From positions 186,001 to 250,000 of the forward strand of contig NZ_JABSNO010000001.1 of assembly GCF_013294015.1 (NCBI RefSeq): a DNA stretch of 64,000 nucleotides, in the 5' to 3' direction. This document shows, in pieces, positions 26,400-57,825 of this stretch; position 1 is the first letter of the stretch; every line of letters begins with the position of its first letter. The notes below the pieces were generated by a model, which ran no database searches, was not told the DNA's origin, and worked only from the letters and a program-made list of their open reading frames with translations. The position numbers were made by a program, and so were the translations under genes. The DNA comes from Frigoriflavimonas asaccharolytica (lineage in GTDB: Bacteria > Bacteroidota > Bacteroidia > Flavobacteriales > Weeksellaceae).

Positions 26400-26753
26400 C
26401 TATTCCGTTTTAGGAGTACTAGCCTTTTGTTTCTCTTTTTTCTTCTCGGCTTCCAACTTTTCCTTTTCTAAATTTTCAGCTTTTTGCTTTATCTCTAATT
26501 CTTTTTTAGCAAGCGCTGCTTCTACTTTCACTTTGGTGATGGAATCTTGATAGGCAACAGAAGATTTCCGGATTTGCGCCGCTACATCTACAGAAATTGC
26601 ACCAGTAGAAAAAGAATCTATCGCCAAAGTATCATATTTTGGAGCCACATAATTTTCTGCATCAAGATTGTTCTCTGTATCGTTTTTCGAACAGGAAAAA
26701 GCACCAATCATCAATAAAGAAAAGAAACTATTTTTAATCATTTTAGGTAGCAT
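26400..26753 (-). CDS. Small lipoprotein with charged helical tail
   Basis: The 117-residue product has a lipoprotein signal (LLMIGAFSC, lipidated Cys at 21) and then an Asn/Asp-rich stretch. The second half is a long charged helix (KVKVEAALAKKELEIKQKAENLEKEKLEAEKKKEK shown here only by its ends AALAKK and EAEKKK), likely a coiled coil. It is probably anchored to an outer or inner membrane leaflet. It begins within the stop codon of the rhomboid gene (TAATG), so the two are co-translated. I do not recognise a family or function. Confidence 0.78.
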   Translation of the reverse strand: MLPKMIKNSFFSLLMIGAFSCSKNDTENNLDAENYVAPKYDTLAIDSFSTGAISVDVAAQIRKSSVAYQDSITKVKVEAALAKKELEIKQKAENLEKEKLEAEKKKEKQKASTPKTE

Positions 26754-27409
26754 TAAGCGATTCTGTATTTGTCTTTTTTCCAGAAATACATATAAATAAA
26801 GCCAACAATTGCGCCACCAATATGCGCAAAATGTGCAATTCCACCAGCCTCACCATTAATTCCAAAATACAAAGAAGCCACCAATGCTGCCGTCATCAAA
26901 TATTTAGCTTTAATGCCAATTGGGATGAACATAATGGCGATTTTTGAATCTGGAGCAATCATTGTAAACGCTGCAACAATACCAGCGATTGCGCCAGAAG
27001 CACCAACTAAAGGGGTTCCATAGATAATATTGATATTTGCACCATGTTCTGCAATTTCAAAATAATTCCATAGACAATGCAAGGCAAAAGCGCCAAATCC
27101 GCTTAAAAAATACAGAATCACGAATTTCTTTTCACCTAAAATTTTCTCAATTATTGGCCCGAAACTTAATAGCGTAAACATATTAAAAACGATATGCATA
27201 ATACCAGCTCCACCATCAAAAGGCGCATGCATAAACATGTGCGTTACAACTTGCCAAACTTTGAAATAAGGAGATTCTACATAAAAAGCAGAAAACAATT
27301 CATACATTTTATCTTGCATGAAAAAATTTGAGGCCAAATACATTATTACATTTAGTATAATAATATTTTTCGTGATCGGTGTAAGTTGACCAAACATATT
27401 TCTAAACAT
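26753..27409 (-). CDS. Rhomboid-family intramembrane serine protease
   Basis: A 218-residue six-helix rhomboid protease that cuts substrates within the membrane. The catalytic serine is S138 in GASGAIAG and the histidine is H196 in AHIGGAIVG. The oxyanion-region Asn is N76 in MHIVFNMFTL. It lies seven bases downstream of mutL and is coupled to the lipoprotein gene that follows. The co-translation makes the lipoprotein a candidate partner or substrate, but that is only inference. A second rhomboid lies at 39.2 kb. Confidence 0.94.
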   Translation of the reverse strand: MFRNMFGQLTPITKNIIILNVIMYLASNFFMQDKMYELFSAFYVESPYFKVWQVVTHMFMHAPFDGGAGIMHIVFNMFTLLSFGPIIEKILGEKKFVILYFLSGFGAFALHCLWNYFEIAEHGANINIIYGTPLVGASGAIAGIVAAFTMIAPDSKIAIMFIPIGIKAKYLMTAALVASLYFGINGEAGGIAHFAHIGGAIVGFIYMYFWKKDKYRIA

Positions 27410-27415
27410 ATTTTC

Positions 27416-29179
27416 TTAAAATTTATTTTTTAATTCTTCCAAATTCAATTCCAAAAAACAGCGCTTTCCGCTGGGCAAATATTCCGGAAAATTGAGGGCG
27501 GTATATTCTTTTATAATGCGCTCTGCATCTACCTTATAAATAAAATCAAAACGAGATTTGCTCTGCATTTTGTTCCATTGATGATTGTAAAAATCCATAA
27601 AATCTTCTTCCGTTCTGTATTCCAAAACATCAAAAAGAGTTTCCATGAAATTCATTACTTGCGTTTCTTTCAAACCTTCTGGCACCGCATCTATTCTCAA
27701 TACATTTCCGTGCGCAACTACCATTTCAAAACCTAAACTGGGTAGGAATTTTTTGATAGAACTGTATTTGCTTTTCTCAATCTCATTCATGTGATATTCT
27801 AGAGAAAATAAGAGCTGCGAAGAACTATTTACCGGCTTTTTGTCTTTATTTCTATCGCTTATTATCAATCTGTGCATCCTGCCCAAATCCAACATCAACG
27901 TTTTTCCATTTTTATTTAAAAGCCAATATCCGTTTGGCAATCGCATCAAATCTTCATCAAAATCTTCATCTTCAAAAAGGTTTATTTTAGAAGGTTCTGC
28001 CTCTATATTTTGATGATACATTTCTGTAAGATTCTGCCGAGAAGCCTGCGTATTTTTGCCTTCATCAAAAGGATTGTAGTTTCTATCTACCTGGATGTCT
28101 GGAATTCTAAAACCCGTGCTTTTTTTGCTGCTATTGGCCAAAGCTTCTTCAAAACTGGTGCTTTTTTCAAAATCTAAACTGGGTGCAATATTATAAATTC
28201 CCAGAGATTTTTTGATGGTAGACCTCAACAAAGCATAGATAATATGCTCATCTTCAAATTTTACTTCCGTTTTTTGAGGATGAATGTTAACGTCTATTTT
28301 GTCTGGTTCTATTTCTAAATACAAAAAATAAGAGGGATTATATCCGGGTAAAAGTAAGCCTTCAAAAGCATCTTGCACCGCTTTGTTGTAATACGGACTG
28401 CGAAAATACCTACCATTTACAAACAAAAATTGTTCGTTTCTGTTCTTTTTTGCACCTTCTGGTTTGGCGATGTAGCCAGAAAGTTGCATCCAACCGATGT
28501 CTTCTTTGATAGGAATCATCAAAGGCTGTAGCTTTCTGCCAAAAATTTCTACAATACGTTGCAGTAAATTTCCTTTTCTTAATTTAAAAATAATATCATC
28601 GTCATGATAAAGCGAGAATTCCACTTGCTCATGTGCTAAAACCACGCGTTGAAATTCATCAATAATATGGCGAAATTCAACATTGTCTTTTTTCAAAAAT
28701 TTCCGTCTTGCGGGAACGTTATAAAACAAGGTTTTTACTTGAAAATTAGAACCTTCCGCGGTTTGCACCGGCTCTTGAAATTGTAAAGTGCCACCTTCTA
28801 TATAAATATTGGTACCAACTACGGAATCTTTTTTCTTGGTTTTGAGTTCTACTTGTGCAACTGCAGCAATGGAAGCCAAAGCTTCACCCCGAAAACCTTT
28901 GGTAGAAATTTTGAAAATATCTTCTGTAGTTTTTATTTTTGAGGTTGCATGTCTTTCAAACGCCATTCTAGCATCCGTTTCCGACATTCCATCGCCATTA
29001 TCTACCACTTGAATTAGGTTTTTCCCTGCATCACGAATGATCAATTCTATATTTGTGGCGTTTGCATCTATCGCGTTTTCTAGCAATTCTTTTACGATTG
29101 AAGCGGGTCTTTGCACCACTTCTCCTGCTGCTATTTGATTAGCAACATGATCTGGCAATAATTGGATAACGTCTGACAT
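27416..29179 (-). CDS. mutL: DNA mismatch repair protein MutL (endonuclease motifs degenerate)
   Basis: MutL couples MutS mismatch recognition to strand processing. The N-terminal GHKL ATPase is intact: QIAAGEVVQRPASIVKELLENAIDA, DNGDGM, STKGFRGEAL, and the transducer region to residue 330. In the C-terminal domain the metal-binding DQHA(x)2E motif of nicking MutL proteins is replaced by D431-LGRMHRLI, and the usual CPHGRP motif is replaced by YLPSGKRCF near residue 570. Both changes predict loss of the latent endonuclease. At 587 residues it is otherwise full length with no frameshift. The rhomboid gene follows after seven bases. Confidence 0.94.
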   Translation of the reverse strand: MSDVIQLLPDHVANQIAAGEVVQRPASIVKELLENAIDANATNIELIIRDAGKNLIQVVDNGDGMSETDARMAFERHATSKIKTTEDIFKISTKGFRGEALASIAAVAQVELKTKKKDSVVGTNIYIEGGTLQFQEPVQTAEGSNFQVKTLFYNVPARRKFLKKDNVEFRHIIDEFQRVVLAHEQVEFSLYHDDDIIFKLRKGNLLQRIVEIFGRKLQPLMIPIKEDIGWMQLSGYIAKPEGAKKNRNEQFLFVNGRYFRSPYYNKAVQDAFEGLLLPGYNPSYFLYLEIEPDKIDVNIHPQKTEVKFEDEHIIYALLRSTIKKSLGIYNIAPSLDFEKSTSFEEALANSSKKSTGFRIPDIQVDRNYNPFDEGKNTQASRQNLTEMYHQNIEAEPSKINLFEDEDFDEDLMRLPNGYWLLNKNGKTLMLDLGRMHRLIISDRNKDKKPVNSSSQLLFSLEYHMNEIEKSKYSSIKKFLPSLGFEMVVAHGNVLRIDAVPEGLKETQVMNFMETLFDVLEYRTEEDFMDFYNHQWNKMQSKSRFDFIYKVDAERIIKEYTALNFPEYLPSGKRCFLELNLEELKNKF

Positions 29180-57363: not shown

Positions 57364-57825
57364 TCACATTAAATCTTCAAACCAATAGTCTTCATCATAT
57401 TCGACTTCAAATTTCTGTAAAAGATTTTTATATTCAGCTTTAAAATTTTGTTTTCTATGATGCTCTTCTTGATTCTCAATATATTTATACACATTGTTAA
57501 TAGCAGATTGGCTATAACTAAAACCTCCAAATCCTCTTTGCCATTCAAATCTATCTTCTAAAAACCCGTTTTCATTGATCCATTTTGAGGATTTTGCCTT
57601 TACACTTTTCATTACATCTGAAAGTGAACAGGTAGTTTTTAAAGAAAAAAAACAATGAACATGATCCTCCACTCCACCAACAATAATTGTTTTACAACCT
57701 GTTTCATTGATTAAATTTCCCAAAACAGCATGCAAATCTTTTTTAAAGTGATCCTTAATTAATGCTCTGCGATATTTCACAGCGAAAACAGCTTGAACAT
57801 AAATTTTAACATAAGTGTTCGGCAT
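57364..57825 (-). mobile_element. IS200/IS605-type (REP-associated) Y1 transposase, TnpA-like
   Basis: A 153-residue Y1 HUH transposase. The metal motif is HVH in GGVEDHVHCFFSL (about residues 46-58), and the nucleophile tyrosine is in the following alpha-helical part, either in FSYSQSAINNVYKYIENQ or just nearby. The family ending YIENQEEHHRK is typical of the IS200 and RAYT group. The frame is complete, so the gene may be active. It is flanked on both sides by hairpin repeats (57157-57351 and 57871-57975). No tnpB is adjacent. REP-associated transposases move such repeats in other bacteria. Confidence 0.9.

Follow-up and report, generated by a model that had tools for sequence, protein, structure and literature searches.

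The mutL locus

The window, a stretch of 64,000 nucleotides from a Weeksellaceae assembly that is 99.7% complete, carries on its minus strand a gene for a MutL that lacks the nuclease site (Table 1). The reading frame is a MutL by all the profiles we tried. It scores 447 bits on the whole-length TIGR00585 profile, against a cut-off of 180, and matches the Pfam families DNA_mis_repair, HATPase and MutL_C (PF08676, 28.8 bits against 25). The MutL N-terminal domains in the PDB match its ATPase region at an E-value of 9e-72. Among named organisms, the nearest relatives are Chryseobacterium species, with identities reaching 79%.

Table 1. Features of the mutL gene and its downstream neighbour, in window coordinates.
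Feature	Coordinates	Strand	Residues	Basis or remark
mutL, nuclease-site-less MutL	27416..29179	minus	587 aa	TIGR00585 and Pfam profiles
N-terminal GHKL ATPase and transducer domain	28190..29179	minus	1-330	NQIAAGEV, DNGDGM and GFRGEAL conserved
C-terminal dimerisation domain	27419..27982	minus	400-587	identified by its fold as a MutL C-terminal domain
DLGRMHRLI, replacing DQHA(x)2E	27863..27889	minus	431-439	alignment; only D431 of the metal ligands kept
SQLLFS, replacing sliding-clamp motif QxLLFP	27803..27820	minus	454-459	alignment
NKM, replacing ACR motif (SCK in canonical Bacteroidota)	27566..27574	minus	536-538	alignment
LPSGKR, replacing CPHGRP	27461..27478	minus	568-573	alignment
rhomboid protease gene, the next gene downstream of mutL	26753..27409	minus		class-typical linkage; EEP nuclease gene missing here

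The neighbourhood has its own class-typical pattern. The usual order in Bacteroidia, the class of the window genome, is mutL, two rhomboid protease genes and then the gene for a membrane-anchored EEP nuclease (loci L225-L264), shortened in the Chryseobacterium clade to mutL, one rhomboid gene and the EEP gene. The EEP gene has been lost from the window genome (region 26400-27409) and from genome G025. None of the outgroups shows this linkage, and neither does family f96 as far as we examined it. Elsewhere, the window holds a single IS200-type (Y1) transposase gene with no obvious partner (57364-57825).

Loss of the endonuclease and sliding-clamp motifs

We aligned the window MutL with canonical Bacteroidota MutLs, whose own motifs align to the C-terminal domains of the B. 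subtilis (3gab) and Neisseria (3ncv) proteins in the PDB, and counted five expected metal ligands: D, H, E, C and H. The canonical DQHVAHE falls on DLGRMHR, leaving no DQHA(x)2E(x)4E motif. The ACR and CPHGRP motifs are also replaced, and the terminal FxR, FGR in the canonical proteins, is missing because the window MutL ends at F587. The alignment confirms that every MutL endonuclease motif has gone from the C-terminal domain. A preliminary description of this DNA had reported the first and third of these replacements, and both hold; beyond what it described, the loss of the site is class-wide and the clamp-binding motif has been lost as well.

The motif set is absent from all 22 MutLs sampled from the Chryseobacterium clade, so its absence from the window protein is not the product of chance, a misread frame, a local mutation or a sequencing error. 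D431 is invariant in the same 22 sequences, and close relatives share near-invariant new stretches: DLGRMHR, LLFSLEYHMNE, SKSRFDFxYK and GKRC.

The sliding-clamp motif QxLLFP reads xxLLFS throughout the clade, with P changed to S in 22 of 22 and Q variable. Elsewhere the Q is kept by all 37 out-of-class sequences, all 33 of the class and all 19 from other Weeksellaceae, and the P by 31/37, 33/33 and 18/19, respectively. By these alignments the loss of the clamp motif is a second step, peculiar to the Chryseobacterium clade. In the MutS of the clade genomes, the window genome included, the clamp motif QLSFF at the C-terminus is intact. From the two motifs it thus appears that MutL has given up its contact with the clamp and MutS has not.

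It could be argued that MutL still cuts, its metal site having been reduced or rebuilt around D431, H436, C574 or the acidic residues of SRFDF. The invariance of D431 and the near-invariance of DLGRMHR, SKSRFDF and GKRC are what such a site would predict, and many other Bacteroidia keep two of the five ligands, D and E, with a few keeping D, H and E. We nevertheless consider this improbable. In the class sample D has become H or N in 12 of 33 sequences, the His has changed in 30, and the Cys and second His have changed in all 33. The clade has, moreover, lost the motif through which the clamp activates cutting MutLs. Our structure model (pLDDT 62.8, from an alignment limited to close relatives) is too weak to reveal a metal pocket. 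The best Foldseek matches to it in the PDB are MutL C-terminal domains (3ncv, E 1e-7; 1x9z, E 4e-7; 3gab, E 6e-7), at a TM-score, on this weak model, of only about 0.4.

Extent and age of the loss

MutL sequences were gathered across Bacteroidota in three samples, the class being named as Bacteroidia through the kinship of the window genome, a member of the Weeksellaceae. All five ligands are intact in 24 of the 37 non-class sequences. Within the class the picture is very different: outside Weeksellaceae only 3 of 98 sequences have the full set, all three in family f96, and the survey of Weeksellaceae C-termini that the preliminary description had proposed found it in 0 of 41. By family, the intact site occurs in f96 against none of the other 53 in the 54-family class sample.

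To leave out the columns of the trait itself, the tree was built on the ATPase domain alone. Bacteroidia form one clade (support 100/96; IQ-TREE, 71 rows), in which f96 branches first and the remaining members make up a single clade (96/87), a topology with which a FastTree analysis of 145 rows agrees. The simplest reading of this tree is one ancestral loss in the class, just after f96 had split off. Over the whole phylum the site state must have changed at least five times, which implies several further losses outside the class. These fall in f20/f22, f12/f24/f28/f34, f21 and f23.

Two sets of loci from this survey stand out. Family f96 (L317, L320 and L330), as the first-branching family and the only one sampled in the class with an intact site, is a natural control. 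Outside the class, the apparently independent losses are found at L178, L179, L208, L215, L224, L155, L164, L168, L169, L206 and L220.

The search for another nuclease

A profile search of the window genome with PF02976, which matches the E. coli control, found no MutH. Domain matches occur in only 6 of 392 Bacteroidota genomes. The four that we inspected (L181-L184) are long proteins, with open frames of 463-481 amino acids, and in at least three of the four loci the gene adjoins a cytosine (C5) methyltransferase. We rejected these as MutH substitutes, the four inspected being Sau3AI-like restriction-modification enzymes. Nor is there a second MutL subunit with an intact site: the window genome has only one MutL C-terminal domain, and a single match per genome was found in 21 of 21 relatives. 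Profile searches also found no stand-alone EndoMS/NucS in the window genome, and a NucS/EndoMS system was rejected, the sole NucS_C match being a 445-amino-acid TPR fusion with a partial domain. This TPR protein with its C-terminal NucS-like nuclease domain (L295:1453-2790) is found in the window genome and a few relatives, and perhaps serves in defence. MutS (an intact MutS1), UvrD and RNase HII are all present.

The nuclease gene linked to mutL in other members of the class looked attractive as a candidate. Its product carries the EEP motifs and, by inspection of the sequences, crosses the membrane three times near its N-terminus; the charge pattern of these spans is inside-positive, which places the nuclease domain outside the cytoplasm. 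We rejected it as the nickase on two grounds: its gene is absent from a genome that is 99.7% complete, and its nuclease domain is predicted to be extracytoplasmic.

These results bear on a broader alternative, the main rival to the mechanism proposed below, in which a separate endonuclease, homologous to neither MutH nor NucS and activated by MutS-MutL, nicks the new strand in Bacteroidia. In its favour, strong selection maintains MutS, MutL and, outside the Chryseobacterium clade, the MutL clamp motif in a class for which no nickase is known, and the class-specific cluster of mutL, two rhomboid genes and an EEP nuclease gene exists. The EEP candidate, however, is missing from the window genome and G025 and is predicted to act on the wrong side of the membrane, and no further candidate was found among the genes searched one by one. 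We regard a separate nickase as less likely than not.

The preliminary description had inferred, from the missing nuclease motifs and an expected absence of MutH, that this lineage may nick by another enzyme or use a novel strand signal. Both premises stand, and either outcome is possible. The search for a nickase that it called for gave no MutH, no second MutL, no stand-alone NucS and an unsuitable EEP nuclease. The idea that the loss marks this one lineage was not borne out; it is shared by nearly the whole class and has occurred separately elsewhere in the phylum.

Selection on MutL and evidence of working repair

In pairwise comparisons of clade members, dN/dS comes to about 0.01 in the ATPase domain and about 0.03 in the C-terminal domain. 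The latter value indicates strong purifying selection and shows that the C-terminal domain is not decaying. Mean identity of the C-terminal domain is 59% within the clade against 43% among other Weeksellaceae, and that of the ATPase domain 79% against 71%. MutL is present in 147 of 149 Weeksellaceae genomes and MutS in 60 of 60; the site is absent from every Weeksellaceae MutL whose C-terminal domain was examined.

Elizabethkingia anophelis belongs to the Weeksellaceae, the family of the window genome. An isolate with a disrupted mutS became a hypermutator, and its mutations are rich in transitions, as is expected once mismatch repair is lost (PMC5458099). Repair that depends on MutS is thus functional in this family. 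With all known cutting activities absent, it might be supposed that mismatch repair does not function here or that MutL has another job. The low dN/dS in both domains, the near-universal retention of MutL and MutS and the Elizabethkingia hypermutator all argue against this, and we think it very unlikely. Separately, the mutS of one Weeksellaceae species is split into two open frames (G052:C1:1583904-1586454), possibly making it a natural mismatch repair mutant.

Discussion

The mechanism we favour, which we put at about an even chance, is that this is a functional MutL that lost its site long ago and acts as a non-cutting ATPase matchmaker, with repair initiated at discontinuities that the nascent strand already has. 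The role of MutL would be that of the E. coli protein, an ATP-driven clamp and matchmaker and nothing more, connecting UvrD and exonucleases with the MutS bound at the mismatch. Neither MutL nor MutH would make the first nick; excision would begin at pre-existing breaks in the new strand, such as the ends of Okazaki fragments and RNase HII nicks. Contact with the clamp would be left to MutS in the Chryseobacterium clade, where MutL has no clamp-binding motif. Natural nicks, including those made by RNase HII, have been proposed as the start of mismatch repair in bacteria that lack MutH (PMC8744996).

Three points count against a break-directed start. The leading strand would offer few existing breaks. 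RNase HII is not known to drive mismatch repair in E. coli or B. subtilis. It is also assumed in the literature that bacteria without MutH need a nicking MutL (PMC12733681).

The window MutL is a variant of a known family, with its mode of action inferred. Like E. coli MutL (1x9z, among its best fold matches), it combines a GHKL ATPase with a C-terminal dimer domain that has lost the nuclease site. E. coli MutL depends on MutH, however, which the window genome lacks, and it retains the clamp motif that is missing from the MutL of the Chryseobacterium clade. The loss in Bacteroidia also differs in being class-wide and in another phylum. With the endonuclease MutLs (B. subtilis, Neisseria, Aquifex and canonical Bacteroidota) and PMS2 it shares family and domain order, and its C-terminal fold matches 3gab and 3ncv, but it has none of their nuclease motifs and its clamp motif is altered. 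MLH1 and yeast Mlh2 are likewise nuclease-dead MutL proteins kept under selection; these pair with or assist a cutting partner, whereas here there is a single MutL C-terminal domain per genome. The non-canonical EndoMS/NucS pathway also achieves mismatch repair without MutH, but the window genome has no stand-alone EndoMS.

Reviews describe a two-way rule, in which bacteria have either MutH or a cutting MutL (PMC12733681, PMC8744996). The MutL proteins of almost the whole class Bacteroidia appear to fit neither arm. In public annotation they still go under the name "DNA mismatch repair endonuclease MutL" (the TIGR00585 family), although their site is missing. We found no published description of the class-wide loss in the open-access literature, although specialist surveys may contain one.

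We lean slightly towards the view that Bacteroidia start mismatch repair in an undescribed way, either through a mismatch-activated nickase or by a purely break-directed process, and that the MutL of the Chryseobacterium clade has been freed from the clamp, leaving MutS alone as the link to replication. As MutL lacks its cutting site and MutH is absent, how these bacteria start mismatch repair becomes a testable question. If the loss is confirmed, the class would provide natural, genetically tractable systems for studying the strand signal of mismatch repair when nothing known cuts, with built-in contrasts between the intact, basal f96 and the clamp-less Chryseobacterium clade.
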